Translations under genes and position numbers: made by a program | In this document: positions 1 through 18,540 of the stretch, piece by piece | Position numbering within the stretch: the stretch's first letter is position 1 | Layout: every line of letters starts with the position of its first letter | From: a virus | IMG/VR virus record: IMGVR_UViG_3300024344_000129 | Span: 1-23,659 of that record | Length of the DNA stretch: 23,659 nucleotides | Direction: 5' to 3' (one strand) | Notes under the pieces: model-generated | Told to the model about the DNA's origin: nothing | The model's database searches: none | What the model saw: only the letters and a program-made list of their open reading frames with translations

Positions 1-169
1 TATCCGTTAATAAAGTTATAAGAACAGCTCCCATACCTCCAACTATCCAATACTCTAGTCTTTTAATTCTGTCCTGCATTTCTTTAATTTGTTCAAACGT
101 TTGCTTTTGCATTATCCTGCAAAGCTTCTCGTGTGATTCAATTTTTTGTAACGCCGATTTTCTCGCCAT
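1..169 (-). CDS. Small coiled-coil and membrane protein, cut by window edge (holin-like?)
   Basis: I translated this partial frame by hand: 56 codons are visible from an ATG at 169-167 before the window ends. Residues 8-39 are charged and heptad-like (short coiled coil). Residues 41-54 are hydrophobic (YWIVGG..AVLITLL) and look like the start of a membrane-spanning segment. This layout is seen in small phage lysis proteins of the XhlA/holin type and in other small membrane-anchored phage proteins, so a role in lysis is possible but unproven. The start overlaps the stop of the large upstream gene by one base (TAATG), which supports translational coupling and this start. The C-terminus is not visible. 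The gene call is fairly sure; the function is weak. Confidence 0.7.
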   Translation of the reverse strand, partial: MARKSALQKIESHEKLCRIMQKQTFEQIKEMQDRIKRLEYWIVGGMGAVLITLLTD

Positions 170-3100
170 TATGCTGTCCCTTTGTTTTTATCTCTTAACC
201 TTATTATTTGTTCAGACGGAGATAGTAACGCTAACTCGGTTGCTGTCAATTCATTTGTTTGCCCTGTTTGTTGTGCATTTGCTTGTGTTCCTACAACAGG
301 TTGTGGTGTGCTTGGTAATGATGGTAATAAAGATTCTTCAAATAAAAAGTCATTTACATCTGAATCAAAAGCACTTGTTAAAGGTAAACGTCTAAATTCT
401 TGTAACATTAATCTTAATGTTGGTCTAACTTCTGTAAATATATTTGGGTCACCTAAGTTTCTAGCTATCTCAGCAAATCTTTGTTGGATATCATCTGATG
501 GAAAGTATGGTTCAAATCTACCTCTTGATAAGTTATTAAAAGTTGCACTACTTAATTGTCTATCTTTAAACTCACGTTGTAGTGCAGATTTTTTTACTCC
601 CAATATCTGAGCTGCATTTATATTTTTATTCATTTCTTGTTGAACTAAAAATCTAGCTCTGTTTGAATTGTAGTATGCTTGAATAACATCATTTGGTTTT
701 ATTCTACCACCTCTAAGTATTCCAAAATAACCACCTGTAAATTCTCTTCTAGCATTTCTTATACCTGTTTGATACTCAGCTATCTTAAAACCCATAGAAT
801 CTAGTGGATCTACTTTAATAGGACGCAGTCCCATAAATCCTGCTAACTCTGGTCCTATGTTTAATTCTTCACCACGTTTAGTTGGTGTTCCAAAAGCAGC
901 TTGTCCTAATCTTTGAAACTGTCTATACGATGGTGCAAGTGCAATACCTAAATGTAAAAATCTAATTGCAGCTTTGTTTCCTGCTGGTGTTTGTTCCGTG
1001 TACAATTGTCTACCCTCAGCTGTTCTACCACCTCTGACAGTTAAATCTGTTACAGCCTCTGTCCAGATAGATTCTGATATAAATGGATTCATTATCTCTG
1101 CGCCTGCTTGGTTTACACCATCAACAAAACCAGATAACAATGTTTGATCTGTTGCTTCACCTGCAATAATATTATTAACTAAAGTTCTAAAAGGTCTAGC
1201 TATAACATCGTATGCATTACTGTGACTAAAATCTATATAACGTAATTCACCATCATCTGTTCTGATAGGGACAAGCGTAGAGTTTTTAGACCAATCTGGT
1301 ACGAACTGACGTAATGCTGCTATCTCATCCTCGGTTACATCGTAAATGGCTTTTGCTCCTTCTACAACTACTTGTGGTACAACAACTAATGTTGTGGCCA
1401 TACCTGATAATCTTTTAAATCCTGTGCCATACATAGGGTTATTATTTTTAACAAGACCTTTGCCATCTATATTAACATATGGCGTAACTGTGCTTCCTAT
1501 AATTTTTTCTCCTGCAGCTGGTATGTGTCTCATCTCTTTTAAACCTTGCTCTGCAATATTAGTTGTAGTTCTAATCATTTCTGCAGGAAACGACATAAAG
1601 TTACCAATAGGTAGTATTCTTGCTGTCTTAACTGCAGATCCAACGTACGCATAGTTTGGTACAGTATTTTTTACAATATTAGCTGCCTCTTGTTTTAAAC
1701 CTCTGACTACATCATCTGTTAATTCAACACCTTGTTTTATTGCAGATTGTTTTAATCTATCTAACTCAACAACATAGTTTGTAATCTTCCATGTGTCGTC
1801 CTCTGCAACATATTTACCCTGAAAAAAACTACCAAGTTTTTTTAATTTAGTCATAAAAGGTTTTAGTATTGCATCTGTGGATACAACACCTGGATTACCT
1901 GTTGCATCTTTTAACAAATTAACAAGATCTCCTATCTGCACCTGTGAGTTTACAACACCAAGTTCTAATAATTCTCTGTAAGCTGCTTGTGCCTCTGCAG
2001 AATTTGGTCCTAGTTTTAATAATGCAGATGTATCTACACCTTCTTTAAATGCTCTAGCTAATAAACCAGGATTAGTTAAACCCTCAAACAATATACCGTT
2101 AGCACCAGCAAATGCACCAGCACTAAAAAAGTTACGTAAGTGTGTAGGTATAGATAAAACTGTTTTTGCTAATTGTGATATACCTTTTGGAAATAATAAA
2201 AGATTTCTATAGAACCATGTCACTGCTTTTTCTGCAGGGTTAGCACCTTCTCTACCTCTAATAACAGAAGTAAGACCTGCACCAATATCATTTGCATTTT
2301 TTATACCATCAGCTATTTCTTTTGTTGTAAACTTACCTGACAATGGATTAGCAATACTATTACCACCTGGTAATTTTTGCACTACACTATCAATAGGAAC
2401 TATTTGAATACCAGTTGTTGGTGATTGTACAGCCTCTTTTGCTAAATCTTCTGTTTCCCAAAAAAAACCTCTACCACCAGCTTGTTGTACTTTTCTATTC
2501 TGTGCTGCAACATCATCAAGATATGTTGCTGTTCTTGCTACAGCAGATAAATTAGTCATCGCATTAAATATAGAATATCTTGGATCATTTATTTCACCAA
2601 ACAATTCTCTAAATACTTTGCTACCTCTACCTGGTATGCCTTCAAAAGTTTTTTTCTTAGACATAGCTGTGCCGTTTTGATATGTAATGTCTGGTAAGCC
2701 TGCAGGTCTACCTTTTACTTGTGCTTGATTTACAACATCGTCAACTAAAAATTTTGCTTTCTCGTAATATTCTGTGCCTTCAGGAACAAATTGTCCAAAC
2801 TGATCTTCTTCTAATTTTACCGGTGTTTTTCTTGTGTTATCTGTTTGTGCAAGATATCTTCTAAACAAGTTTATAGATCTTGCATATGCCTCATCTGTTG
2901 GTTTAAATTTTTGAAACAACTTAAACAAACCTTTTGGTTTTTGAAATATTCTATATGTACCACCTAGCCAACCCTCAATCCTATCTTTCATTATCTTTTG
3001 TAAATCTTTTGCACCTGCAGCAATCTTTGTTCCAGCATTTCTATTTAATATGTCAATTAAATTAGTAAACTCGTTTCTTGCACTGTTTAAATTTGTTACT

Positions 3101-4137
3101 ATGTTTGTAACAGATTCTTCTGGTATCTCTTTATTTTTTAATAATCTAATTAAGTCATCAGATGCTTTTGGATTTATTGGTTTAGTTAAATCACCCTCAA
3201 ACAACACATCATTTATTTTTTTATAAAAATCTACTTGTTCTTTGTTTGTAGTTGTATCAAAAAACTTACCTGTTCTAGGAAATATTTTATCTACTTCTCT
3301 TGTTATATTTTCTACAATCTCTTTTGCTCTAAAAGTATCTCTTGCTTTTAATCCAGATTTTGCCATTTCGGCTTCAAAAACTTCTGTTGGTAAATCACCT
3401 CTTGGTCTAAATGGTGAACCAATATATTTGTCTACCCATCTTTCAAAAGCACTATCACTGTATGCAAGATCCTTGCCTCTTTTTGCAAGAGCTTTAGCTC
3501 CTGTACCTACACCATAAACAAATGGTGTAATGAATATAGATTCTGTACCAAACTTTAATCTATTTAATATTCTTCTACCTGCTTCCTCTCTACCAACAGT
3601 TTCTCTATCATCTATTGCTGTTGGCCCATCAAAGAAATCACCAAATGTTCCAATATCCTCTACATCAGCAACTAAAGTCTCACCTGCTGCACCACCAAAC
3701 ACACCAGCTGCAAATCTTTTTGTACCATCAGGTATTCTATCGTTTAATGATTTAGCTGTTTTCATTCCATCTTGAATAGATTTAGCTCTTGTATTAACGT
3801 AATTACCAGATCTTTTTGCTTTAATTGCTTTATCTGCTAGTTTAGTTGCTGCTTTAAATCCTGCAGTTCCTGGTATACCTATCTGTGTAAATACTTCTAC
3901 GAGTTTACCTGCAACTCTATCTTGTGCTGTGTCTTCAAATATATTTATGTCGTCAAAAAATTGTTCAACCTCTGCTGCTTTATTTGTATCTGCTCCAAGA
4001 TCAATAAGCTCTGCACCAAGAGATACAACACCCTCTACAGTTTTTAATAAACCAGATGCAAAACCTGCAGCAACAGATGAAAATATGCTACTGTCGTTGT
4101 TTAATTCTGCTTCTGTTAATGGGACATATTTTGCCAT
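169..4137 (-). CDS. Large 1322-aa virion protein, probable internal/DNA-ejection protein
   Basis: This is the longest gene in the window. I do not recognise a catalytic motif. It is rich in predicted helix, with Ala/Gly-rich stretches near residues 21-45, 141-155 and 205-220 and hydrophobic stretches near 646-690 and 905-930. A central part around residues 820-870 (NTVPNYAYV, then GNFMSFPAEMIRTT) resembles a segment I associate with very large proteins of uncultured marine phages. Its size, its place last in a run of low-complexity virion-like genes behind the tail nozzle, and the podovirus-like layout suggest an internal virion or ejection protein comparable in role to T7 gp16. No lysozyme or transglycosylase signature was seen. 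AGGAG lies 6 nt before the ATG, which supports the start. A large polyvalent or host-takeover protein is an alternative. Confidence 0.93.
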   Translation of the reverse strand: MAKYVPLTEAELNNDSSIFSSVAAGFASGLLKTVEGVVSLGAELIDLGADTNKAAEVEQFFDDINIFEDTAQDRVAGKLVEVFTQIGIPGTAGFKAATKLADKAIKAKRSGNYVNTRAKSIQDGMKTAKSLNDRIPDGTKRFAAGVFGGAAGETLVADVEDIGTFGDFFDGPTAIDDRETVGREEAGRRILNRLKFGTESIFITPFVYGVGTGAKALAKRGKDLAYSDSAFERWVDKYIGSPFRPRGDLPTEVFEAEMAKSGLKARDTFRAKEIVENITREVDKIFPRTGKFFDTTTNKEQVDFYKKINDVLFEGDLTKPINPKASDDLIRLLKNKEIPEESVTNIVTNLNSARNEFTNLIDILNRNAGTKIAAGAKDLQKIMKDRIEGWLGGTYRIFQKPKGLFKLFQKFKPTDEAYARSINLFRRYLAQTDNTRKTPVKLEEDQFGQFVPEGTEYYEKAKFLVDDVVNQAQVKGRPAGLPDITYQNGTAMSKKKTFEGIPGRGSKVFRELFGEINDPRYSIFNAMTNLSAVARTATYLDDVAAQNRKVQQAGGRGFFWETEDLAKEAVQSPTTGIQIVPIDSVVQKLPGGNSIANPLSGKFTTKEIADGIKNANDIGAGLTSVIRGREGANPAEKAVTWFYRNLLLFPKGISQLAKTVLSIPTHLRNFFSAGAFAGANGILFEGLTNPGLLARAFKEGVDTSALLKLGPNSAEAQAAYRELLELGVVNSQVQIGDLVNLLKDATGNPGVVSTDAILKPFMTKLKKLGSFFQGKYVAEDDTWKITNYVVELDRLKQSAIKQGVELTDDVVRGLKQEAANIVKNTVPNYAYVGSAVKTARILPIGNFMSFPAEMIRTTTNIAEQGLKEMRHIPAAGEKIIGSTVTPYVNIDGKGLVKNNNPMYGTGFKRLSGMATTLVVVPQVVVEGAKAIYDVTEDEIAALRQFVPDWSKNSTLVPIRTDDGELRYIDFSHSNAYDVIARPFRTLVNNIIAGEATDQTLLSGFVDGVNQAGAEIMNPFISESIWTEAVTDLTVRGGRTAEGRQLYTEQTPAGNKAAIRFLHLGIALAPSYRQFQRLGQAAFGTPTKRGEELNIGPELAGFMGLRPIKVDPLDSMGFKIAEYQTGIRNARREFTGGYFGILRGGRIKPNDVIQAYYNSNRARFLVQQEMNKNINAAQILGVKKSALQREFKDRQLSSATFNNLSRGRFEPYFPSDDIQQRFAEIARNLGDPNIFTEVRPTLRLMLQEFRRLPLTSAFDSDVNDFLFEESLLPSLPSTPQPVVGTQANAQQTGQTNELTATELALLSPSEQIIRLRDKNKGTA

Positions 4138-4146
4138 TTAAAACTC

Positions 4147-5001
4147 CTAATCGTAGAAGCCTATACCAAAATCTTTGTCAGCTCCTGCCTGTATATCTTT
4201 AACTACTTTTTGTTGACCAGGACTTAAATAAGTAAAATCAGGTTTTGTTTTAGGTTCTGGCATGTCTTCACCTGTCGTATCCATGTCAGCAGAGTCTGCT
4301 GGAACAATTTTTAATTTACCTGTTGCAGTATCTTTTAAAATTCTAACCGCTTTACCTGTTGCAACATCATATACAACCTGTCGTTTTGCTTGTGGATTTT
4401 GTTTTACAAATTTTTCTAAACCATTTTTTTGATTTTCATATACAGATAAATCAACCGGATCTATAAAAACACCTTGATCTCCATAATTACCTTCTAGTTC
4501 TTTAAATTTATTATCATAAAAATCTATTTCTCTTGCTGCTTTTATTTCATTACCACCATAGTTTTCTTTTGCAGATTCTATTCTTTTTAATAAATCGCCT
4601 CCACCCATCTTAGCTATTTTTTCTCTTTCAACTTCTAATCTTTTTTCTAATTGTCCACTTTCAAAATCTCTTTCTTCTTGTGATAATTCTCTTGCAAATT
4701 CTCTATCTGATGCTGTTTTCATTTGTGCTGCTTGACTTGCTTGTAATCTATTAAACGGATCTCGTGCTGCTGTTGCTGCTGTTTGAAATATATTACCTTG
4801 TGGTGGTGTTGCTAAAAGATTTAAACCAAAGCCAGTTAAGAAACCTGGTAAACCTGATGCTTGAAACGATGGCATTGATCCTTGTTGATAACCTGTTCTG
4901 CCACCATTAGCCATTTTCTGTGGTTGATCTAGTCCTGATGTGATACCAGTGCCTGCTGATCCACCTATTCTAAACATTGGTCTTTTTAAAGTTCTATTCA
5001 T
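4147..5001 (-). CDS. 284-aa low-complexity virion-associated protein with GGRTG motif
   Basis: This is a hypothetical protein. The N-terminus carries MFRIGG (residues 9-14) and ANGGRTGY (31-38), close relatives of the GGRIG motifs repeated three times in the protein encoded at 5999-7819, so the two proteins share a short signature. Residues 80-130 are highly charged (Arg/Glu/Gln) and likely helical or coiled coil. The C-terminal third is acidic with TTGEDMPEPK near residues 240-250. No enzyme motif was seen. The start overlaps the stop of the upstream gene (TAATG at 5001), and the stop lies 9 bp before the large ejection-like gene. Placed between two ejection-like genes, it is probably a minor virion component or an assembly factor. 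Function unknown. Confidence 0.9.
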   Translation of the reverse strand: MNRTLKRPMFRIGGSAGTGITSGLDQPQKMANGGRTGYQQGSMPSFQASGLPGFLTGFGLNLLATPPQGNIFQTAATAARDPFNRLQASQAAQMKTASDREFARELSQEERDFESGQLEKRLEVEREKIAKMGGGDLLKRIESAKENYGGNEIKAAREIDFYDNKFKELEGNYGDQGVFIDPVDLSVYENQKNGLEKFVKQNPQAKRQVVYDVATGKAVRILKDTATGKLKIVPADSADMDTTGEDMPEPKTKPDFTYLSPGQQKVVKDIQAGADKDFGIGFYD

Positions 5002-5999
5002 TATGCGAAAGGTTTACCTCCTAAAGCACCATATACACCAGCCATAGTTGCTCCTACACCTAATGCAGTTTGTAATGGTGTAGGGTTAGGGACAACTGTT
5101 GATTGGAATTGTCCAGGGTATCCACCCATAATTCCTGTTACCTGTCCAGCAAATCTATCTAATTGTTCTTGTGGTAAAAATGTAGCCTGTCTTGCTGCCT
5201 CTCTCTGTGCATCAAGATTAGCTTGTTGCTGCGCCTGGTTCAGTGCGCCCAACTGACCTAAACGTGAAACATCTGTACCTGTCGCTTGTTGTTGTAATTG
5301 TCCTAAACCTGTTTGGAACTGTCCTAAACCTAATTGTTGTGATGCTAACGCTCCTCTGTTAGCTATATCTTGTTGTCTTTGTGCTGCTGCCTGACCAAAA
5401 CCTTGTTGCAAGAGACCGGCTTGTAATAATGCTCGTTCTCTCGCAGCCCCTGTGCCAAACTCTGCGAGTTGCACTCCCGCTCGACCACTGCCGAGCGCAC
5501 CCAAAGCTGTTTGTTGATCTCGTATACTTTGTTCTTGTATAGCTTTGTTACGATCAAACTCCGCTAATGTAGCGTCAATAACTTGAGATTGAAAAGGGGA
5601 CATAAAGTCTTGTACGTCTTGTTGAAAAGCTTGTGCTCCTACTCCTACTCCACCTAATGCTGTTCCTGCTGCAGTCCCTGCAGTTTGAGCTTGTTGTAAA
5701 AACGGTGCGAAAGATCCTACACCTTGAGTTGCTAAATTTTGTGCCTGTGTTTGTAATGCATCTTGTTGTGCTACCTGTGGTGCAAGTCCTGCTAGACTTT
5801 GTTGTCTTGTTGTAAATTCTCTAGCTGCCTGTTGTCTAGCTTGAAAATCTGCAGCAGCTTCACCTGGTTGTTGTGATATACCAGCAAGTCCAGTTGATAC
5901 TACAGGAACACCTGATTGTGCTGTGACCTGTTTTGCTAGATCTTTTCCTAGATCTTCGACAAATTGTGCGGGTAAAGTTCTTGTAGTTTGTACAGCCAT
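5001..5999 (-). CDS. Gln/Ala-rich internal virion (ejection-like) protein
   Basis: This 332-aa protein is extremely rich in Gln, Ala and Gly, with long predicted helices and no enzyme motif. Around residue 130 it has the run DFMSPFQSQVIDATLAEFD, then GALGSGRAG. Variants of 'MSPYQQ.VVD..L.E.DR' followed by a Gly-rich turn and Gln/Ala helices are familiar from putative structural or ejection proteins of podoviruses. The C-terminus (near 305-332) is Gly/Ala-rich and hydrophobic. Local base composition is richer in G+C than elsewhere (a hand count gives 32 of 60 at 5221-5280), partly because of Ala, Gln and Gly codons. It is linked by TAATG overlaps at both ends, so it is co-translated with its neighbours. 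A role as internal core or injection protein is likely but rests on composition and context. Confidence 0.92.
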   Translation of the reverse strand: MAVQTTRTLPAQFVEDLGKDLAKQVTAQSGVPVVSTGLAGISQQPGEAAADFQARQQAAREFTTRQQSLAGLAPQVAQQDALQTQAQNLATQGVGSFAPFLQQAQTAGTAAGTALGGVGVGAQAFQQDVQDFMSPFQSQVIDATLAEFDRNKAIQEQSIRDQQTALGALGSGRAGVQLAEFGTGAARERALLQAGLLQQGFGQAAAQRQQDIANRGALASQQLGLGQFQTGLGQLQQQATGTDVSRLGQLGALNQAQQQANLDAQREAARQATFLPQEQLDRFAGQVTGIMGGYPGQFQSTVVPNPTPLQTALGVGATMAGVYGALGGKPFA

Positions 6000-7819
6000 T
6001 ATAATACTTCCTCTAATCTTTGTGATGTTTGAAACATTTTACGTGCGCCTTCTAATCCTTGCGATTCTTCTGATACGTCACCCCCGGATTCGAGGTTCTT
6101 CATCATGTTATACATAACTTCTGCGCCTTTGTCCACATCTCCGTCGCCCGCATTTCTAACAGCATCTGCTGTAAATACAAACTCATTCTTAGATAATCTT
6201 GCAGGGACATCATCTGCTTTTTCCATACGTCCTATTGGCACAAATCCACCATCTTCTCTTAGATCCATCTCTTTGCCACCCATATCTAATAGTGGCATAG
6301 TCTTTTTAGCTACCGGTTCTTTTGATCCTTCTTGATATCCTATTCTACCACCCTCTGCTCTAAATGCCAGACCTCTTTGATCTCCTGAAGTTCCTGCCTG
6401 TAAGATCATTCTTCTAGCTGCCTCTATATCTATACCCTCACCTCTTGATAATTCCTGTGCCTCTTCTTCCTGTTCTGGTGTCATTAATCCTGCTAGTGCT
6501 GATGCTCCTATTATACCTGCTCCTACCTTACCACCTACTAAATCAAGTAAGCTTTTACTAGTTTTACCTGGTCCTACGACATCTCCAAAAATTTTATTTG
6601 TAAACAAAGCTTTTGTTTTTCCTAAATTAGCTAAAACATTACCTGGATTAAATATACCACCAAATCCAGTTGTAGCTCTTGTAGCTCCTGCACCTAAAGC
6701 TCCTAATCCTGCTGTTCCTGCATATAATAATGCAGCTTTACCTATTGGTGACTTTGCAATTTTCTTGACTGTTCTTGTAACTTTCTTAACAAGTTTACCC
6801 AGACCATACATTTGTCTTGCTGATTCAAGGTCCATGATCCCACCTTCATAAGGCATGCCACCTTCCATAAGTCCAATACGGCCGCCTTCTGCTTTAGCTA
6901 AACCTAAACTTTTCATTAACTCAGTATCTTGACTTACCAAAGAACCTGTTTGAGTTGTTAATTTTTCAAAATTTTTAGCAGCGTCTGGATTCAATACAGT
7001 GTCTACTGTTTTTTGACTAACACCTGTTTGATCATCATCACTACCTAAACCAAAAATATCCATAATTTTTTGAAGATTACTTTTTTCTTTTACAATATTA
7101 ACAGGTGGTTTTTCTTTTATAACCGGTCCTTTACCACCACCACCGCCACCAGTTGGTCCTTTAGGTCCCTTATCTCCACCACCTCTAAATCCTCCACCTG
7201 TATCTGTTCCAGGAGACATGGCTCCTTTACCTGCACTAGCATCTGCCTGTGCACCTTTAAAAAATCCTATCCTACCACCATTAGCTCTGAATGCTAATCT
7301 TAAACCCTCGTCCTCTTCTTCTGGTTCTTGGTCCATGTTGCTTGGTGCTTGAGTCATGATACCTTGTGGTATTAAAATATTATTGTTATCATTATCGTCT
7401 TGATTAATAGGATTACCATATGCATCTATCTCATTAGCCATCCTTGCTTTCATATAATCGTTAAAAGTTGGAACTTTCATTCCTCTATCTAAAAGTGATG
7501 GTTTAACTTTATCTTCAAAAAATTTTTTATTATCTAATGGACCAAATACACTAGCTATTCTTCTTATAGTGCCAATACCTGGAACAAAATCTAAAAAATT
7601 AAACTTACTTGGCTTTTCAAAAAAATCTTGTTTTTCATCACGTATTCGATTAGTTATATTTCTTAAATCCGCTTTTTTTTGTGCCTCTTTCATAGACTCT
7701 TCTCTTCCTCGGTCTCTATTACCCATACCACCTCTTTCAACAGGTCCCTCTTTGGCTCGTCCTCCGACTCCACCTATTCTATATAATTGTCTCGCGATTT
7801 GAGTTCTAGTTATGGCCAT
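5999..7819 (-). CDS. 606-aa virion-associated protein with three GGRIG motifs
   Basis: No enzyme motif was seen. The N-terminal 65 residues are very basic and rich in Arg and Gly. GGRIG occurs at residues 181-185, 312-316 and 490-494, each in the setting A-[NE]-GGRIG-[FLY]-x-x-G. Residues 206-232 are a Gly-rich linker. Residues 357-383 and 433-446 are hydrophobic and Gly/Ala-rich and could insert in a membrane. Near the C-terminus, ARLSKNEFVFTADAVRNAG (540-558) resembles a segment I have seen in putative structural proteins of marine phages. The mix of membrane-active stretches and flexible linkers fits a DNA-ejection component. The gap to the upstream 56-aa gene is 9 bp. No strong ribosome site is visible, so coupling is likely. 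Function is inferred only. Confidence 0.92.
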   Translation of the reverse strand: MAITRTQIARQLYRIGGVGGRAKEGPVERGGMGNRDRGREESMKEAQKKADLRNITNRIRDEKQDFFEKPSKFNFLDFVPGIGTIRRIASVFGPLDNKKFFEDKVKPSLLDRGMKVPTFNDYMKARMANEIDAYGNPINQDDNDNNNILIPQGIMTQAPSNMDQEPEEEDEGLRLAFRANGGRIGFFKGAQADASAGKGAMSPGTDTGGGFRGGGDKGPKGPTGGGGGGKGPVIKEKPPVNIVKEKSNLQKIMDIFGLGSDDDQTGVSQKTVDTVLNPDAAKNFEKLTTQTGSLVSQDTELMKSLGLAKAEGGRIGLMEGGMPYEGGIMDLESARQMYGLGKLVKKVTRTVKKIAKSPIGKAALLYAGTAGLGALGAGATRATTGFGGIFNPGNVLANLGKTKALFTNKIFGDVVGPGKTSKSLLDLVGGKVGAGIIGASALAGLMTPEQEEEAQELSRGEGIDIEAARRMILQAGTSGDQRGLAFRAEGGRIGYQEGSKEPVAKKTMPLLDMGGKEMDLREDGGFVPIGRMEKADDVPARLSKNEFVFTADAVRNAGDGDVDKGAEVMYNMMKNLESGGDVSEESQGLEGARKMFQTSQRLEEVL

Positions 7820-10727: not shown

Positions 10728-11327
10728 CTTTAAAGGAGCGCCTAAAAAAGGCCTTCCATCAAACATATACTTGTCTCCATAAGGTCCGTCAAGATCATTA
10801 TAATGTAAAAAAGCTTGGCAACACTCTTCTCCTTTAAAAGGGGTTCTCCAATGAACTATTTCCATACCACGATAAACTGCTAGGTCACCTTTTTTTAAAA
10901 GTATCTTAACTTTCTTTTTTTTATTACGAACATCTTGAACATATATCTCCCAAGGATCACCGCCTAAAGCTACCGTAACAGAAATTTCACAAGCTTTTCT
11001 ATCTATGTGTTTACGAAGATCATTTCCTGTTTTGTACACTCTACCGTAAGAATATGTCGGCACTAACCTAAGTTTAGTTGCTTTTTCTATTATAGGCCTT
11101 GTTTTATCTAAAAACATATCTAACCCAATAGAGCCATACAAAGCGTACGTATCAACTTGTGGGTCTTTCTGCACTCCTAAATTATTTAAATTACCAAAAA
11201 ATTTTTTGTCGCTTTTTACATACTGAAAATATTGTTTTTTAAACAATAAATAATTATATAAAAATTCACACATTTCTGAAGAAACAGCTTTTCTAACAAT
11301 AATATATTTATTTTTTTTAAACGTCAT
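10707..11327 (-). CDS. 2OG-Fe(II) oxygenase-like protein, 206 aa
   Basis: It would catalyse oxidation, typically hydroxylation, with 2-oxoglutarate and O2. Visible ligands are H107-I-D109 on one strand and H159 in YRGMEIVHWR, with R161 or K165 as possible 2OG contacts, in a double-stranded beta-helix context (CEISVTVAL, then WEIYVQDVR, then GDLAVYRG). The C-terminus (DGPYGDKYMF..APLKLDW) is an extension of about 30 residues. Substrate unknown. It is the last gene of the enzyme cassette and overlaps the upstream halogenase by 11 bp (ATGACGTTTAA), so the two are probably co-translated. It aligns by eye with the protein at 15394-16083, which has lost these iron ligands, so the two appear to be paralogues. 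Confidence 0.93.
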   Translation of the reverse strand: MTFKKNKYIIVRKAVSSEMCEFLYNYLLFKKQYFQYVKSDKKFFGNLNNLGVQKDPQVDTYALYGSIGLDMFLDKTRPIIEKATKLRLVPTYSYGRVYKTGNDLRKHIDRKACEISVTVALGGDPWEIYVQDVRNKKKKVKILLKKGDLAVYRGMEIVHWRTPFKGEECCQAFLHYNDLDGPYGDKYMFDGRPFLGAPLKLDWSKL

Positions 11328-12852
11328 ATATATGTTTTTTTAAAAATTTATATAAACTAAGTTCATCTTTAACAATAACATCCCATTCTATTTTTCTGTT
11401 AGTTAAATGATCTGATATACCTTTCCAATTTTTTTTCCATTTATCCATATCATTATCTAAATTGCCTTTAACTAATGAAACAATATTTGTAGGAGCCCAA
11501 TTCATTCCAGCAGCAATTGAATGTATTCCCCCTGGCAAATGAGTAAAACGATAATTAACATTTTTATCTACTGCATAGTTTAAAAATCCTGCATGGCCTT
11601 CATACAATAAATTAATTACTTTATCTGACCATTGTTTGTTAAAATTTGCTTTCCAATAATTTGTATCTTGCCTGTGTGATAAAGCGTAATGCATAGCTAC
11701 AAAATCTGCAAACCCATAAAAAATAGTTTTGCAGGCATTTGTGTACACATCTTTATCCCATTGAGATACTGATCCTCGATCCAATGTTCTAACTAAATGA
11801 TGTAAAAATTCATGAACTGAAAACAAACCATTACTTTCTAACGGTTCAATAAAACCTGCCGATAGACCAATAGCACAAACATTTTTAACCCATAGTCTAT
11901 TATGAATTCCAACTCTCATTTTAATTTTTCTAAAATCTAATTCTTTTGTTTTTAAATGTTTTTGAAATTGTTTTAGTGCTGTATCATCATCTACAAATTT
12001 ACTAGAATAAACGTAGCCACTTCCAATTCTGCTCCACAAAGGTATTCTCCACACCCAACCATTTTCAATAGCTGTGCAATTAGTATAACCTACTAATTCT
12101 TCTTCTTTGTTTTTATAAGGGATACGTGTTGCCCAAGCAGAATCATTTGGTAAAAGATTAGTCATGTCATTAAATTTTTCTTTTAAAGTTTTATCTAAAA
12201 GTAATGATTTAAATCCAGTGCAATCAATAAATAAATCAGCCTTGTGTTTTTTATTTAAACTTTTAATACCATCATCATCTTGTTCAATAGTATTAATATC
12301 TTCTTTAATATGTTTGACTCCTTTAGGTATGCATGCATTATCTCTTAACCAAATACCAAATTTAGTTGCATCAAAATGAAATGCGGTGTGTTTATGAAAC
12401 TCAAATGGTATGTTATTTTTTTCATTTAAAAAACATTTGTTTTTATTAACTAAAGACATTTGAGGATAAGTACAATCAGCAAAATCAGAAGATGGAGTTT
12501 TAGGATATAACATTTTTTTAAACCACCAATCATTTAATAAAGATTGATTTTGATCAACTACAGGATCTCCAAACGGATAATGAAATGCCTCCCCTTTTTT
12601 ATAAAAATCTGTAAACTTAATACTTAATTTATAAGATGCATCACACGCTTTCATAAACTCTGAATCTTTAATACCAACCATAGCTTGCCATCCTCTTATA
12701 GCACCTAGTGTGCTTTCACCAACACCTACTGTAGAAATAGTTGGACTTTCTATAAGAGATATATCTTTTTTAGGAAAAAATTTTATAAGGGTGGTTGCGG
12801 TCATCCAACCAGCAGATCCTCCACCAACAATTATAATTTTTTTAATAGCCAT
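11317..12852 (-). CDS. Flavin-dependent halogenase, tryptophan-halogenase family (511 aa)
   Basis: It would use FADH2, O2 and halide to make HOX and halogenate an electron-rich substrate. The sequence shows the FAD motif GGGSAG (residues 10-15), VGVGEST (42-48), the family signature WVWRIP (266-271) and GSGYVYSS. K75 in DASYK aligns with the catalytic Lys79 of PrnA, and E339-S340 in IEPLES aligns with PrnA Glu346-Ser347, so the active site looks complete. Length is close to the usual 500-540 residues. The substrate cannot be read: free tryptophan, peptide Trp or a phenol are all possible. A phage halogenase (VirX1, cyanophage Syn10) is known precedent. It overlaps neighbours by 11 bp on each side. 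No flavin reductase gene is in the window. Confidence 0.95.
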   Translation of the reverse strand: MAIKKIIIVGGGSAGWMTATTLIKFFPKKDISLIESPTISTVGVGESTLGAIRGWQAMVGIKDSEFMKACDASYKLSIKFTDFYKKGEAFHYPFGDPVVDQNQSLLNDWWFKKMLYPKTPSSDFADCTYPQMSLVNKNKCFLNEKNNIPFEFHKHTAFHFDATKFGIWLRDNACIPKGVKHIKEDINTIEQDDDGIKSLNKKHKADLFIDCTGFKSLLLDKTLKEKFNDMTNLLPNDSAWATRIPYKNKEEELVGYTNCTAIENGWVWRIPLWSRIGSGYVYSSKFVDDDTALKQFQKHLKTKELDFRKIKMRVGIHNRLWVKNVCAIGLSAGFIEPLESNGLFSVHEFLHHLVRTLDRGSVSQWDKDVYTNACKTIFYGFADFVAMHYALSHRQDTNYWKANFNKQWSDKVINLLYEGHAGFLNYAVDKNVNYRFTHLPGGIHSIAAGMNWAPTNIVSLVKGNLDNDMDKWKKNWKGISDHLTNRKIEWDVIVKDELSLYKFLKKHIYDV

Positions 12853-14260
12853 TATGAATCCTGTCTAAATATCCTTTTATAGTTATAGCATCTTTGGTTT
12901 CTGTCTTAATTTGATTTAAATATTTTACACGCATTTGTTTATGAAGTGAAGCAGAATATAAAGAAATTTCTTTAGCTATATCTTTACGATTAAAATGATT
13001 AATGCCCTCTAAAACATATATGTGATTAATTTCATGAAAATTTAAATAACGACTTTGAAAATCTTGAGTAATAGGTAATCTTCTTTTCCAAGTATTTAAT
13101 TTTTCTTGGAAATCATCAGAAAAAGTTATTCTTTCATTTTTCCAAAACGAAGTATTTTTACCTTTTGCTAAATAATGAAGAGCTACAAAGTTACGAATGT
13201 TCCAACTCGTAATCTGCCAATGTTTATTAAAAGTATCAATTTCTTTTTCTGTATAATTACTTATATAATTACAAAAACAAAACGTTTGTTGAACAGATGC
13301 CCCTATCGCACTAGCCCCAAGTGGTTCTGCAAACAAAGCACTCAAACCTATAGCCATGCAATTTTTTATCCATGGTTTTTCTAAATAGCCATCATTAAAC
13401 TTAATAAATTTTTCTATCTTAATAGGATGACCCAATAGTTTTTCTACCTCTTGTTGTGCTTTTTCTCTAGTAATGTAATTTGAATTGTATATGTACCCGT
13501 TACCAGATCTATTATAAGTAGGTATTCTCCAAAGCCAACCAGCATTCATAGCTTGTGCCAAGGTCCATGGATTATAATTATTTTCATCGTTAGTATTAAA
13601 AGCCATTCCTTCATTCATAAGAAGGTTAAAAGGTTTCCATTTACTACCTAATTTAGATATTAAAAGTTTTTTAAATCCAGTGCAGTCAAAATAAAAATCT
13701 GCTTTGTATGTTTTTTTAAGTCCTTTTAAAGATTCAATCTTATCGGTATGAACAACATCAACAATTTCATCATCTATTACTTTAATGTTTCGTTCTTTAC
13801 ATTTCTTAATTAAGAATTGATTTAATTTGTAAGTATTAAAATGATATAAATTACAACGAACATTTTTATTCATTAAATTCTTTTTAAGAAAAGGAGACAT
13901 AATCTCGTTAAAAGAAATCTTATTAGCAATGCAATAAGCATAAAAAAGATCATACTGCCCCATGGTAAAACGATGGTCATTGTCTACAAAATGTAAATAT
14001 GGTTTAGGAGTCCAGTCTTTAAACATAATTCCAAATTTAAATGTTGCATCTGCTTCTCTAATTAAATCTTCAGGTTTAATATTACAAACAGACATGAACT
14101 CACTCCAATGTTCTGAAGTTCCCTCTCCCACACCAACGATTCCAAGACGATCAGATTTAATAATTTTAATATCTATTTTTTCAAAACGCGCTCTTAATAT
14201 TAAAGCAGCAACTAATCCAGATGTTCCTCCTCCTGCAATAATTATTTTTTTTACGTTCAT
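12842..14260 (-). CDS. Second, divergent tryptophan-halogenase-family protein (472 aa)
   Basis: It has the same family features as its neighbour at 11317-12852 but is clearly a separate lineage: GGGTSG (10-15), VGVGEGTS (42-49), K75 in DATFK at the catalytic lysine position, and WLWRIP (242-247). The loop that reads EPLES in PrnA reads EPLGAS here (312-317), so the glutamate equivalent to PrnA Glu346 is replaced by Gly315. This suggests altered or reduced chemistry, a different substrate, or a role needing only HOX production or FAD oxidation. It is shorter at the C-terminus than classical members. The start is 2 bp after the stop of the 170-aa oxygenase gene; the stop overlaps the next halogenase by 11 bp. 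The family call is firm, activity uncertain. Confidence 0.94.
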   Translation of the reverse strand: MNVKKIIIAGGGTSGLVAALILRARFEKIDIKIIKSDRLGIVGVGEGTSEHWSEFMSVCNIKPEDLIREADATFKFGIMFKDWTPKPYLHFVDNDHRFTMGQYDLFYAYCIANKISFNEIMSPFLKKNLMNKNVRCNLYHFNTYKLNQFLIKKCKERNIKVIDDEIVDVVHTDKIESLKGLKKTYKADFYFDCTGFKKLLISKLGSKWKPFNLLMNEGMAFNTNDENNYNPWTLAQAMNAGWLWRIPTYNRSGNGYIYNSNYITREKAQQEVEKLLGHPIKIEKFIKFNDGYLEKPWIKNCMAIGLSALFAEPLGASAIGASVQQTFCFCNYISNYTEKEIDTFNKHWQITSWNIRNFVALHYLAKGKNTSFWKNERITFSDDFQEKLNTWKRRLPITQDFQSRYLNFHEINHIYVLEGINHFNRKDIAKEISLYSASLHKQMRVKYLNQIKTETKDAITIKGYLDRIHNGY

Positions 14261-14262
14261 AT

Positions 14263-14775
14263 TTAATGTTTAAACACAGAATTAAATGCTATTACAGTTT
14301 TTCTATTATTAGCGACAGGCTTTGACCTATGCACTAAAAAACCTGGAAAGGTTATTACCTGACCTTCTTTAGCTTTATATTCTATAATTTTCTTTTCTCC
14401 TGATTTAATTTCTGTTTTTTCTTTAAAACTATTTAATTCTAAAAAATAAACATTGGTGTAATTACTATACTCATGATTATGCCACTCATGAAAAGAAAAT
14501 TCAGTATATTGTTGAAACCAAGCATTAGCTATTTCCCACTTTGACGCTTCAAAATATTTCATCTGTTTATCCATAATAGGAGTTATTACATTCTTATAAA
14601 AATAATCTAAGTATTCTCTTTTAAAATCTGATGGTATATTCCAATCTGTTTTAGATACCGAACTAAAAGATTTATTAGGCATTTTTTTTATTAAATTTAG
14701 TAATTTCTTTTTGTGTTTTTTATGATTAGGAACATCACAAATAAACATAGCACAAGGAATTGTTTTTATCTCCAT
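14263..14775 (-). CDS. 2OG-Fe(II) oxygenase-like protein, HxH type, 170 aa
   Basis: The fold and motifs match the short putative 2OG-Fe(II) oxygenases common in phages (PF13759-like): FHEWHNHEYSNYTNVYF with H99 and H101, then a distal FPGFLVH with H149, and R158/K159 as possible 2OG contact before IAFN. In this subfamily HxH stands where HxD is usual. The frame extends upstream to a GTG at 14793, but I chose the ATG at 14775 because AGGAG lies 4 nt before it and because it leaves the typical 10-bp overlap (ATGGAGATAA) with the upstream gene. Substrate unknown. It lies directly upstream of the two halogenases, so co-expression with them is expected. Confidence 0.92.
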   Translation of the reverse strand: MEIKTIPCAMFICDVPNHKKHKKKLLNLIKKMPNKSFSSVSKTDWNIPSDFKREYLDYFYKNVITPIMDKQMKYFEASKWEIANAWFQQYTEFSFHEWHNHEYSNYTNVYFLELNSFKEKTEIKSGEKKIIEYKAKEGQVITFPGFLVHRSKPVANNRKTVIAFNSVFKH

Positions 14776-15404
14776 GGCTCTCCTAAGTGCCACATTGGCA
14801 TACTATATCTAGTGCCTTTGGTAACAGGTCTAACTCTGTGTTTAACAAAAGAGGGAAACACAATAAGAGATCCTTTTGTATTAATTTCAGTAATAATTCT
14901 TTTTCCCTCAGAACCACCATTACTAAAATCCATTTCAAACTCTCCCCCTTCAAAATCTTTTCCTGGTTGAGACAACAATAAAACAGAACTTAATTTTCTA
15001 ATTTTACCCGCAAAATCTTTTCCTGCGTTACTTTTATAAGGTTCTGCCCAACTGTCCATATGCCAATCATAAAACTGTCCTTTTTTATATTCAGTAAATT
15101 GAGCATTTTCATTCCAATCCCATTGAAAATTCCAACCAGCATTATGGTTTGCTGCTGTAATCGCAGGGTTAATAGTTTCATATATCCATTTTTCTTGTAA
15201 CCAATTAACTTTTGAATTTCTGTGTTTTTTTAATTTCATTAGTTCTTTTTTGGATAACGGATTTTTTTTTAGATTCCTGTTAAAACCTTGGTTCCCAGTT
15301 ATTGCAGTATGTTTTTTATTTTTATTTCCTAGTTTTAAAATTTTATCAATAAAAGATTTAGGAAATGGGTTTTTAAAATACCAATAAAAATTTTTAAGAT
15401 TCAT
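14766..15404 (-). CDS. Prolyl-4-hydroxylase-like (PKHD-type) 2OG-Fe(II) oxygenase, 212 aa
   Basis: This is the most canonical oxygenase in the window. It shows FYDWHMDSW (iron ligands H115, D117), RKLSSVLLLSQP..FEGGEFEM, then GSLIVFPSFVKHRVRPV with distal ligand H189, and R199 in TKGTRYSMPMW as the probable 2OG carboxylate anchor. The layout H-x-D, about 70 residues, H, then R ten residues later is exactly that of the PiuC/PKHD and prolyl-hydroxylase families. Possible substrates are peptide prolyl or other side chains or small molecules. The start lies inside the end of the upstream gene (11-bp overlap ATGAATCTTAA). Basic Lys-rich N-terminal third. Function is confident at the level of chemistry only. 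Confidence 0.95.
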   Translation of the reverse strand: MNLKNFYWYFKNPFPKSFIDKILKLGNKNKKHTAITGNQGFNRNLKKNPLSKKELMKLKKHRNSKVNWLQEKWIYETINPAITAANHNAGWNFQWDWNENAQFTEYKKGQFYDWHMDSWAEPYKSNAGKDFAGKIRKLSSVLLLSQPGKDFEGGEFEMDFSNGGSEGKRIITEINTKGSLIVFPSFVKHRVRPVTKGTRYSMPMWHLGEPWR

Positions 15405-16083
15405 ATTTTTTTAATTTTTCTTTTAAATCATTAATCTCTTGATTTAATGCAACATGTTTTTTAGTTGCCATATTTAATTGATGATGAATATGTTCGTACG
15501 TATTGTTTTTATGATTTTCTGTAAAATCTTTTTTTAACTTTTGATGAAGCATATTAGTTAAAGGATCTAAATGTAAACCTTCGTATGCATACGGCCGACA
15601 CATTGGACAATTACAAACATAATGTGCTTCAAATTCTAAATACGGTTTAGGTCCCTTATAAGATTCTCTCCACATTTCATAACCACTACCATCATAAATA
15701 AAAGCCTCATTAACTCCTAATTCTTGTTCATAAGTTTCATTAGTGCGGACATCTCTAAAATAAGTTGTCCAATTATTTTCTTCAAATAAATTTACTAACA
15801 CAGTTATATCATGTTTTATGGGTTGCAAGTGTTTGGTAACTTTAGCATCTGGCATATAAGAATTTAAACTAGAATAATGAGGCATTATAAATCTATCATA
15901 ATTTTCTTTAACAACATTTAATCTTTTTGTTGCAAGGTACTGACTAACTAAAGTTTGCTTCCACATTTTTTTAAGATTAGCCGGGTATTGATCTCGTGGC
16001 ACTCTTGCTTGTAAAAAATCAATATGACGTATTAATCCTGAGGCGTCATTAGGTTCAAAAAAATTTTTAACTTTTTCTATCAT
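15394..16083 (-). CDS. Degenerate 2OG-oxygenase-like protein with CxCxxC cluster (229 aa)
   Basis: This is not a standard family to me. The middle aligns by eye with the oxygenase at 10707-11327: KHLQPIKHDITVLVNL against KHIDRKACEISVTVAL, W..YFRDVR against W..YVQDVR, and GYEMWRESYKG against EIVHWRTPFKG. At the iron positions it has H85-x-Q87 instead of HxD and M137 instead of the distal His, so ordinary Fe(II)/2OG catalysis seems lost. Right after this fold come C157, C159 and C162 (VCNCPMC), which could bind zinc, iron or another metal. The C-terminal 40 residues are a His-containing coiled coil (EHIHHQLN, then heptads to the end). The start overlaps the upstream stop as ATGA. It could be a regulatory or scaffold subunit, or a different metalloenzyme. 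Confidence 0.93.
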   Translation of the reverse strand: MIEKVKNFFEPNDASGLIRHIDFLQARVPRDQYPANLKKMWKQTLVSQYLATKRLNVVKENYDRFIMPHYSSLNSYMPDAKVTKHLQPIKHDITVLVNLFEENNWTTYFRDVRTNETYEQELGVNEAFIYDGSGYEMWRESYKGPKPYLEFEAHYVCNCPMCRPYAYEGLHLDPLTNMLHQKLKKDFTENHKNNTYEHIHHQLNMATKKHVALNQEINDLKEKLKKYES

Positions 16084-16697
16084 TGTAAAGATTTTGTTAT
16101 TACATCCATGTTTCCTGAAATGCTAACTCTAGTACATTTTGTAGTAAAAGGATAGACTTGATGTTTTAAGTAAGAAGGGAACATTAACATTAAATTATTT
16201 TCAGGGATAAATTCTGCTTGAGTTATTCCTCTTCGAATATCTATGTCACCATAAGAAAATAAAATACAACCAGGACCTGCACAATTAGTTTCTTTTATTC
16301 TTTTTTTAATTTCATTTTTTAATTTTGTTGGCACATCACAATAAACAACAAAAGAATAATCTCCAGAATGTATATGTTGTGGGTTGTATTCATTTTGTTG
16401 TTGATAATTAATCCACAAATTTAATGGTTTCCATTCTACACAATTTATTTTCCAATGTTTTCTTTGAGCATAAAAATAACTTTCAAAGTAGGGTGTTAAT
16501 TTTTTCCAAATTATTTTAGCTATTTTTTTATCAAATAAAAATTCTTTTTTTATTTGTCCGGCTAAATGAGCTCTAAAATTAAATTTTTGTTCTTTTCCTT
16601 TTTCTAAAATATATTTAGAAATGTCTGGATTAATTTTACTTGTCCATAAAAAAGGACCAAAATATTTAAAATAGTATTGTATCTCTACATCTTTCAT
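16080..16697 (-). CDS. 2OG-Fe(II) oxygenase-like protein, HxH type, 205 aa
   Basis: Motifs of the PF13759-like phage oxygenases: NPQHIHSGDYSFVVY with H108 and H110, and MFPSYLKHQVYPF with the distal H179, followed by R190 in TRVSISGNM as probable 2OG anchor. Between them lies an insert with NCAGPGCILFSYGDIDI (138-154), longer than in the neighbouring members. The N-terminal 80 residues are Lys- and aromatic-rich. It is the first gene of the minus-strand run in the cassette, and its start faces the plus-strand oxygenase across a 40-bp AT-rich gap. No Shine-Dalgarno is visible before the ATG. Substrate unknown. Confidence 0.93.
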   Translation of the reverse strand: MKDVEIQYYFKYFGPFLWTSKINPDISKYILEKGKEQKFNFRAHLAGQIKKEFLFDKKIAKIIWKKLTPYFESYFYAQRKHWKINCVEWKPLNLWINYQQQNEYNPQHIHSGDYSFVVYCDVPTKLKNEIKKRIKETNCAGPGCILFSYGDIDIRRGITQAEFIPENNLMLMFPSYLKHQVYPFTTKCTRVSISGNMDVITKSLQ

Positions 16698-16737: not shown

Positions 16738-17259
16738 ATGAAAGAATACTTATTTACCATTCCTTATTGGAGTTTTGATTTAAGTCAAGATTGGAAAAAA
16801 AACAAATTAATTTTAAAAAGATTAATTAAAAAATATCCATACAGCCGAAGCACATGTTTTTATTCTAACAAAGATAAAACGGATGAAATTTTTAACAACA
16901 CTCTGTTATCTTTAATTAAAAAACCTCTAGAACAGGTTAGCAAAGAAATTAATCAGTCCCTGGTATTACGTAAAGCTTGGTCCTGTTATTACAAAAAAGG
17001 CGATTCGATAATTGTTCACAAACATAGCAATGAAGGTTTAAGTGGTATTTTATATTTAAACTATAATGAGAAAAAAAATTCAAAAACTATTTATCAACAA
17101 CCCTTTCAAAGTTTTTGGAATGATCAAAGTTTTTTTATTGTCCCTCCTGTCAAAGAAGGAACATTAGTTATAGTTCCTAGTTTTATTGAACATTTTACTC
17201 TACCTGAAAAAACAGATAAAATTAAAGAAATAATTAGTTTTGATTTAAAACTTAATTAG
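16738..17259 (+). CDS. 2OG-Fe(II) oxygenase-like protein on the plus strand, 173 aa
   Basis: This is the only plus-strand gene in the window. It shows the PF13759-like pattern: VHKHSNEGLSGILYLNY with H94 and H96, the family 'LSGxxYL' strand, GTLVIVPSFIEHF with H152, and ISFDLKL at the end. At the position of the usual 2OG-anchoring Arg (11 residues after the distal His, as in the protein at 16080-16697) stands K163, so the anchor would be Lys. It is divergent from one oxygenase gene and convergent with the fibre-associated gene, whose 3' end it overlaps by 8 bp (17252-17259). No Shine-Dalgarno is seen before the ATG. Orientation and base composition suggest separate insertion or inversion. 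Substrate unknown. Confidence 0.93.
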   Translation: MKEYLFTIPYWSFDLSQDWKKNKLILKRLIKKYPYSRSTCFYSNKDKTDEIFNNTLLSLIKKPLEQVSKEINQSLVLRKAWSCYYKKGDSIIVHKHSNEGLSGILYLNYNEKKNSKTIYQQPFQSFWNDQSFFIVPPVKEGTLVIVPSFIEHFTLPEKTDKIKEIISFDLKLN

Positions 17260-17670: not shown

Positions 17671-18540
17671 TTATTGGAATTTGTATCTAATGATTACAAC
17701 ACCAGGTCCTCCAGTTGATCCTCCGCCGCCACCGCCGCCGCCAAGGTTAGTTCCGCCATCTACTCCAGGTGCAGCAGGTACAGGTCTTGCGTCTCCTCCG
17801 CCTCCAGATCCGCCAGTTCCACCGCCGCCGGTTCCGCCGCCACCGCCGCCACCAGCGTAATTTACACTTGATCCAGTAATGCTGCTTGGTGCTCCAGCAC
17901 CACCAGCACCATGATTAGGTGAACCAGCACCACCAGCACCACCACCACCGCCTGAGCCGTGAGGAGGGTGAGGGTGACCATTGCCACCAGGGTTTCCTTG
18001 AGAGGGACTTACAGGAGGTGTATTACCTGCTCCTCCAACAGAACCACTAGTAAAATATCCTGCACCACCGCCAGATCCACCTACGTTTCCATTTCTTGGT
18101 CCGTTGGATACTCCACCGCCACCGCCGGTGCTTGTAATAGTTGAAAAAACTGAATCCCCACCTTTGTTAGCATTATTATTATTACCACCGTCAGGACCAT
18201 TTGGTCCACCAGCTCCAACGGTAACAGTGATATCACCATCTGCAACTGTAAGGGCTGCAGGGGCTGCTAAAGGGTCGCCTGGATAATTAGTTCTCATTCC
18301 ACCAGCACCACCGCCAGCTCCATGAGAGGCTGCGCTTCCACCGCCTCCACCAACTACCAGATATCTTACCTTATCGCCATCTGTTGAGTCTGTTCCTGTT
18401 GTTACTGTAAAAGTTCCTGATGAATTAAAAGTATGTATTTTATCATTACCTGAAGTTGTTACCGTACCACCGGTTGCCTCCATAAATTCAGGTCTGCCAC
18501 CTCCTGCTCCGAAACCTAATATTCTATATCCAAAAGACAT
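17671..18540 (-). CDS. Glycine-rich tail adhesin-like protein, 289 aa
   Basis: The N-terminus has a fibre-like strand pair (KIHTFNSSGTFTVT near residues 34-47, then VRYLVVGGGGGSA near 58-70). It is followed by about 200 residues dominated by runs of Gly, with Asn/Pro/His-containing turns, and ends GPGVVIIRYKFQ. This is the layout of the glycine-rich phage domain found in tail-tip adhesins (polyglycine-II packing is known for T-even-like gp38), so it is a good candidate for receptor binding. The DNA is low-complexity, with many CCG/CCA/CCT codon complements in a row, which should favour slippage and recombination. AAGGAA lies before the start. Certain as a gene, likely as adhesin. Confidence 0.94.
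   Translation of the reverse strand: MSFGYRILGFGAGGGRPEFMEATGGTVTTSGNDKIHTFNSSGTFTVTTGTDSTDGDKVRYLVVGGGGGSAASHGAGGGAGGMRTNYPGDPLAAPAALTVADGDITVTVGAGGPNGPDGGNNNNANKGGDSVFSTITSTGGGGGVSNGPRNGNVGGSGGGAGYFTSGSVGGAGNTPPVSPSQGNPGGNGHPHPPHGSGGGGGAGGAGSPNHGAGGAGAPSSITGSSVNYAGGGGGGGTGGGGTGGSGGGGDARPVPAAPGVDGGTNLGGGGGGGGSTGGPGVVIIRYKFQ

Follow-up and report, generated by a model that had tools for sequence, protein, structure and literature searches.

Several described systems resemble parts of what we report here. In the gp38 adhesins of T-even phages, glycine-rich motifs flank hypervariable regions (PMC12892980), and lysozyme and other functional domains move between podovirus ejection proteins of the T7 gp14/15/16 type (PMC8954989). 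Ongoing domain shuffling in phage proteins has been surveyed, with a sequence-mosaic signal in tape-measure proteins but no recent mosaicism confirmed there (PMC10684548), and Rad52-like relaxed recombination works on short or diverged sequence (PMC3945230). Here we analysed the virus record IMGVR_UViG_3300024344_000129 from IMG/VR (23,659 bases, the window) and its relatives, and describe a recurrent peptide, A-[DEN]-GGR[IVAT]G-[FYL]-x-x-G, in two neighbouring genes coding for proteins of 606 and 284 amino acids (aa). At this peptide, in protein and DNA alike, the sequence continues on one side while on the other another module takes its place; the peptide is a boundary between modules and a place of crossover. 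We consider it probable that the peptide is a flexible joint between exchangeable modules of tape-measure-like ejection proteins.

The window has four GGR[IT]G cores, all in frame on the minus strand: three in the 606-aa open reading frame (ORF), at 7265-7279, 6872-6886, and 6338-6352, and one in the 284-aa ORF, at 4891-4905, exactly where the original prediction had placed them (full sequences are in the table). Before each core stands A-N or A-E, and after it come F, L, or Y, two residues, and Gly; the glycine claimed after the aromatic or aliphatic residue is real, with the same two-residue spacing in all four copies. The surroundings had also been described as otherwise unrelated, which is correct and turns out to be key to the nature of the motif.

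The pattern GGR[IVTAML]G[FYLAVM]xxG occurs 106 times in 926 unique ORFs, against 0.18 expected from residue shuffles. These ORFs, with identical proteins merged, come from 80 IMG/VR loci (the top 80 of 509 relatives found for the 606-aa protein) together with the window and two named phages; one of the six seed peptides used to find relatives (MEGGMPYE) touches the second motif copy, a caveat on how the loci were selected. The 606-aa homologues hold 89 of the copies and the 284-aa homologues 16, and the last one lies in phage 023Pt_psg01, in the gene that takes the place of the 284-aa gene. Carriers make up 57 of 76 606-aa homologues (some cut by contig ends) and 16 of 41 284-aa homologues, and no copy was found in homologues of the 332-aa (0/61), 1322-aa (0/30), or 728-aa (0/71) proteins. 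The excess over chance and the conservation among homologues, which the original prediction had named as its checks, are thus both seen.

Because the 80 loci had been chosen through the 606-aa protein, IMG/VR DNA was also scanned with the pattern A[DE]GGRIG[FY]xxG alone. This returned at least 120 viral stretches, against a single match to the isomeric control A[DE]GGIRG[FY]xxG, in which R and I are exchanged; with the shuffles, this rules out chance or composition as the source of the motif. From these stretches 80 loci were fetched, and each of their 83 matches lies in frame inside an ORF. With the motif masked, 80 carrier proteins fall into 10 groups at an expectation value (E) of 1e-4, and the largest group, of 65 members, appears on our reading to be linked largely through a common C-terminal element. 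The pattern has nine matches in 84,980 bacterial and archaeal species genomes (scanned without the permuted control), of which three (L217, L218, and L220) look virus-like by context and the rest resemble chance matches. The full motif is absent from the scanned parts of HTVC008M (50,000 of 147,284 bases), HTVC010P, HTVC011P (39,000 of 39,921), HTVC019P, and HTVC026P (30,000 of 32,480), and there are partial lookalikes in HTVC008M, HTVC010P, and HTVC026P; HTVC103P (30,000 of 54,103 bases scanned) has one copy, at aa 1455 of gp52. A text search of the literature for GGRIG gave no phage paper by title among the matches listed, which does not mean that the motif has never been published.

Listing the copies shows the same downstream peptide behind differing upstream peptides and at varying positions in the protein. 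Among protein high-scoring segment pairs (HSPs) of the 606-aa family with at least 60% identity over at least 30 aa, 386 of 1053 internal starts fall within -10 to +14 residues of the motif, against 69 expected, and the control, starts at other GG dipeptides, gave 639 of 1387 against 573 expected. When 241 copies were clustered by flank, 25 right-flank clusters occurred with more than one left-flank cluster (one with 15 and one with 9), and 19 left-flank clusters paired with more than one right-flank cluster; two left-flank clusters have five right-flank clusters in common. Pairs with the same right flank also share the left in 31 of 314 cases at the joint, compared with 297 of 300 at an anchor 20 residues downstream and 98 of 98 at +60. 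Reading from the other side, pairs with the same left flank share the right in 30 of 64 cases at the joint, 40 of 41 at -20, and 11 of 11 at -60. For the flank clustering and the flank-pair comparison, identical joint contexts were merged and copies close to the end of an ORF were excluded, as were nine pairs for the same reason in the gapped DNA test below; the window, as locus L083, is represented in the flank clustering and excluded from the flank-pair, DNA HSP, and ungapped DNA tests.

The same switch is visible in DNA. In ungapped comparisons, the left 45 nucleotides (nt) are less than 50% identical in 179 of 231 joint pairs whose right 90 nt are at least 85% identical, and at least 70% identical in 35; with shifted anchors, the left falls below 50% in 0/105 pairs at +90 nt, 4/109 at +150 nt, and 2/34 at -90 nt. 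When gaps are allowed, 149 of 222 pairs from 52 genes, selected by the same right-hand identity, have no similarity in the 40 upstream residues, compared with none of the controls at +90 nt (0/105) or +150 nt (0/109) downstream. DNA HSPs (at least 80% identity and 90 nt) start at a joint in both genes in 824 of 7538 cases, against 27 expected, and end at joints in both genes in 48, against 12 expected.

In at least one gene, two joints of a relative have been brought together by crossover. At the first joint of L051, the left side matches joint 1 of L042 at 43 of 45 nt, and the right side matches joint 2 of L042, which lies 186 residues beyond joint 1, at 74 of 75 nt; the converse comparisons give 11/45 and 28/75, and the 15-nt core of L051 matches both L042 joints (13 and 14 nt). 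Thus joint 1 has been joined to joint 2 with the intervening part missing, and the switch maps to the motif. L029 has a like arrangement relative to L008 at lower identity (33/45 left and 56/75 right; converse 19 and 28).

How strictly the motif is kept bears on what it does. The joint-3 slot was counted in the 52 of 68 aligned sequences holding the KEPVA anchor; A-x-GG precedes the anchor in all 52, with GGRxG in 9, GGRIE in 5, GG[ILM]MRxxY in 8, and only the short A-x-GG in 30. The N-terminal slot also has substitute peptides, and its copy in the window is degenerate (RIGGVGG). From the joint-3 variants it follows that the part kept throughout is a short glycine break after Ala, with RIG[FYL]xxG as one common extension, and a strictly required tag is unlikely because A-x-GG is universal at this slot but GGRxG is found in only 9 sequences. 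A mobile DNA insert was considered and rejected, as the slot is kept with substitute peptides and is not gained as a fixed unit.

These counts weigh on two functions that the peptide might otherwise have. It could be a short linear binding motif in which each GGRIG[FY]xxG docks to one common partner (the portal, the core ring, or the 332-aa protein), the copies giving avidity and the shuffling being a by-product. Confinement to the two genes flanking the 332-aa gene in these loci, a location in low-confidence coil, and conservation across differing contexts would all suit docking, as would a constraint at the protein level, which the 20 different 15-nt spellings among 65 GGRIG copies fit. Still, 43 of the 52 anchored joint-3 homologues do without GGRxG while every one has A-x-GG, and 19 of 76 606-aa homologues (some cut by contig ends) lack the full motif; we therefore regard docking as unlikely. 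Alternatively, a protease might cut at or near the double glycine and free the modules. Polyprotein cleavage sites separate modules of differing nature, as this motif does, but the residue before GG is variable (D 50, N 15, E 8, Q 6, and K 5 in 92 distinct copies), as are the residues after GG at one slot, and we give processing very little weight.

Two further explanations were weighed. If the motif were a recombination site or hotspot in DNA, with the peptide as its by-product, crossovers would map to it, as they do, and two codons are indeed biased: of 112 copies, 51 spell the motif Arg with CGN, where about 12 would be expected, and 88 have GGT for the first Gly, where the expectation is about 59. 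Codon use at Ile and at the second and fifth Gly is near background, however, the spellings are diverse, and the matches are all in frame. CGN is also high at another Arg, in IG-R-[MK]E (35/58), which undercuts the Arg codon bias as a DNA signal, and in part at a third Arg (23/84), with 0 to 3% CGN at seven other Arg sites of these proteins; the 258 joint copies in this Arg control include loci selected with AGR codons, and only the 112-copy count is free of such selection. We reject a purely DNA-level site as highly improbable. As an observation in its own right, CGT is over-used both at the joint and at IG-R-[MK]E (IGRMEKA, window 6215-6235) in genes whose Arg codons are otherwise mainly AGA. 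Simple low complexity of a Gly/Arg-rich kind, or fast upstream divergence that mimics module exchange, might be suspected in Gly-rich proteins with generally variable upstream regions. Low complexity is already contradicted by the excess over both shuffles and the permuted pattern, and left flanks that recur with other right flanks, as well as L051, near-identical to both parents, argue against divergence; between them these explanations have almost no probability left.

The flexible joint thus remains our preferred reading, and we turn to the proteins that carry it. The 332-aa gene, which matches a DNA ejection protein family (phrog_4287), sits between the two carriers, and gp83 of the cultured pelagiphage HTVC027P matches the same family (E 5.6e-06). 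At E 1e-5 the only named phage records matching the 606-aa protein are HTVC027P (56.7% identity over residues 482-578) and 023Pt_psg01 (71.0% over 510-578), both from seawater and both with the motif; the gene order 606/332/284/1322 aa is that of HTVC027P gp82-gp85 and of four genes of 023Pt_psg01. Because of these neighbours and a tape-measure-like element described below, we infer that the carriers are probably ejection proteins, and on our reading the neighbouring genes and relatives look podovirus-like. The original prediction had placed the motif in an ejection module, a setting that gains from the 332-aa family and the conserved order, whereas the roles it suggested, a binding tag, a processing site, or a packaging signal, gained no positive evidence, and a strictly required tag is argued against by the joint-3 slot. 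The window proteins searched gave no match to the T7 gp14/15/16 families; Pfam gave no informative match on the carriers, a solved-structure search with the carrier alignment gave none, and neither the 284-aa protein nor two other carriers matched named phages by tblastn. The window also codes for a Gly-rich 289-aa protein (17671-18540, minus; Pfam Gly_rich_2, E 1.9e-21) without the joint motif.

The modules between the joints appear to differ in nature. The one after joint 2 has a predicted cationic amphipathic helix (hydrophobic moment 0.83, net charge +7, and mean hydrophobicity -0.22 at aa 340-357), followed by predicted Gly/Ala-rich, more hydrophobic stretches at 362-380 and 427-445; these are candidates for segments that interact with membranes. 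The C-terminal element resembles tape-measure proteins: the tape-measure family phrog_5448 is matched by the 606-aa protein and, at E 0.01, by 32 of 80 motif carriers. At E 0.01, a tblastn search with the copy of this element in L126 found 22 phage records. These include the named relatives HTVC027P and 023Pt_psg01, and 16 of the 22 (some duplicates) are annotated as tape measure, in Vibrio, Tsukamurella, Gordonia, and Nitrincola phages and a lake phage (E 3e-5 to 4e-3). This one element is the whole of the tape-measure sequence similarity of the 606-aa protein. Roseobacter phage CRP-1 gp49 (L213, 4977-7124), encoded directly after a putative portal gene, has a tape-measure-like element near its N-terminus (E 9e-3), which shows that a C-terminal position is not obligatory. 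HTVC103P gp52 has a lysozyme domain downstream of the motif, at 1504-1644 (phrog_7, E 5.9e-20; phrog_2083, internal virion lysozyme, E 1.2e-08). A recurring Arg/Lys-then-hydrophobic module follows the joint in L141, L162, L099, and L217, for example KGRRNFMKLMVGLGSLPFVGKFFK, and is a possible membrane-inserting segment; two of 80 carriers have weak Pfam TAT-signal matches.

AlphaFold2 models of the two carriers agree with flexible connections. The 606-aa model consists of short and medium helices, with a mean predicted local distance difference test (pLDDT) score of 54.9, and its joints lie in low-confidence coil (180-215, 306-331, and 489-509). The 284-aa model has a mean pLDDT of 68.7, with 82 of 284 residues below 50, and its joint lies in a low-confidence coil spanning residues 10-53. 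A fold search with the 284-aa model gave as its best PDB match a tail chain of phage KHP30, at an E of 0.28, which is not significant.

We propose that a glycine-rich hinge after a helix would keep neighbouring modules independent of each other, the modules being an N-terminal anchor, cationic amphipathic and hydrophobic segments, a lysozyme in one relative, and a tape-measure-like end. Such independence might allow the protein to thread out of the virion, refold, and act in the envelope, and an exchanged module would still work. As the N-terminal edge of a module includes a joint copy, exchange would also spread the joint and offer later crossovers a short homology.

Several observations weigh against this proposal or narrow it. 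Some left-flank clusters look like diverged relatives of one another, and upstream similarity is kept in 73 of the 222 pairs in the gapped test. Upstream linkage is only partial, with same-right pairs sharing the left in 20 of 36 cases at -40 and 15 of 30 at -60, and same-left pairs share the right in only 97 of 258 cases at +60, which indicates a further break about 60 aa downstream; the joints are therefore not the sole boundaries. HSP ends are not enriched at query joints (74 of 3460, against 205 expected), and the exchange is therefore seen mainly as a change on the upstream side. The pair counts are not independent and should be read as effect sizes, not probabilities. Low model confidence at the joints is weak evidence when 309 of the 606 residues have a pLDDT below 50, and the tape-measure element is present by pattern in only 39 of 80 scanned carriers. 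The RecT and ERF families are absent from all three named carrier records (3/3), and for every carrier the hinge, the ejection, and the location in the virion are predictions.

A wider proposal, which we offer tentatively and hold to be doubtful, is that GGRIG[FY]xxG is a selected standard connector with which a broad, mostly uncultured phage group, some members infecting SAR11, re-assorts envelope-crossing modules among virion proteins, new ejection proteins arising by joint-to-joint crossover without loss of function. Ejection and tape-measure-like proteins diverge fast, so their origin is poorly seen, and a recurrent joint gives a handle on it. With it, many boundaries between modules can be read off the sequence, shuffling within genes can be measured in metagenomes, and the modules with which such phages, some SAR11 phages among them, may cross the envelope become easier to catalogue. 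It also provides a connection in sequence from podovirus-like ejection proteins to those of the tape-measure type.

Table. Joints, predicted elements, and genes of the block in the window.
Feature	Position	Strand	Evidence
Joint 1, ANGGRIGFFKG, aa 179-189 of 606-aa protein	7253..7285	minus	pLDDT < 50 at 180-215
Joint 2, AEGGRIGLMEG, aa 310-320 of 606-aa protein	6860..6892	minus	Right module behind 15 left-flank clusters; pLDDT < 50 at 306-331
Joint 3, AEGGRIGYQEG, aa 488-498 of 606-aa protein	6326..6358	minus	Right module behind 9 left-flank clusters; predicted helix ends at 487
N-terminal joint slot, degenerate in the window (RIGGVGG, aa 14-20)	7760..7780	minus	GGR[ITVA]G in many homologues
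Joint ANGGRTGYQQG, aa 31-41 of 284-aa protein	4879..4911	minus	Within low-confidence coil 10-53
Predicted cationic amphipathic helix, module after joint 2, aa 339-357	6749..6805	minus	Hydrophobic moment and charge (aa 340-357); predicted helix 331-356
C-terminal element GGFVPIG..DDVPARLSKNEFVFTADAVR.., aa 524-577, in common with tape-measure proteins	6089..6250	minus	phrog_5448, E 0.0032; L126 copy matches named tape-measure proteins
606-aa gene, three joints, mosaic; tape-measure-like, putative ejection protein	5999..7819	minus	C-terminal element like tape-measure families
332-aa gene, DNA ejection protein family, no joint	5001..5999	minus	phrog_4287, E 4.8e-10; motif in 0/61 homologues
284-aa gene, one joint	4147..5001	minus	ORF, motif copy, structure model
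1322-aa gene, same block, no joint	169..4137	minus	Motif in 0/30 homologues; position of HTVC027P gp85, annotated putative structural protein

Elsewhere in the window there are two tandem flavin-dependent halogenase genes on the minus strand, at 11317-12852 and 12842-14260 (Pfam Trp_halogenase, E 1.1e-109 and 2.6e-78); marine viral halogenases are a term already present in the literature. Four 2OG-Fe(II) oxygenase-like genes adjoin them, three on the minus strand (14263-14793, 14766-15404, and 16080-16697) and one on the plus strand (16738-17259), and the halogenase and oxygenase genes are perhaps one modification cassette.

Compared with the gp38 adhesins, the carriers of the window are alike in having conserved glycine-rich motifs between variable segments. 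However, gp38 forms the tip of a tail fibre, binds receptors, and has a poly-glycine II sandwich, whereas the carriers look like ejection proteins, and the joint peptide, unlike the gp38 motifs, has an Arg and an aromatic or aliphatic residue, in surroundings predicted at low confidence; profile searches of the window proteins gave no match to the gp38 family. The lysozyme after the motif in HTVC103P gp52 recalls the mosaic ejection proteins of the T7 type, although the available text of PMC8954989 mentions no conserved joint peptide in these. With the tape-measure proteins of long-tailed phages there is the element GGxV..D.[VI]PA.LS..E[FY]V in common; unlike these, the window has neighbours and relatives that are podovirus-like on our reading, and a 606-aa model of short and medium helices. 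In contrast to the tape-measure result of PMC10684548, near-identical DNA recombinants occur here in a tape-measure-like protein, with one recurrent peptide at the switch. Exchange at the joint is thus a variant of the known mosaicism of phage proteins, with its own peptide and its own protein class.

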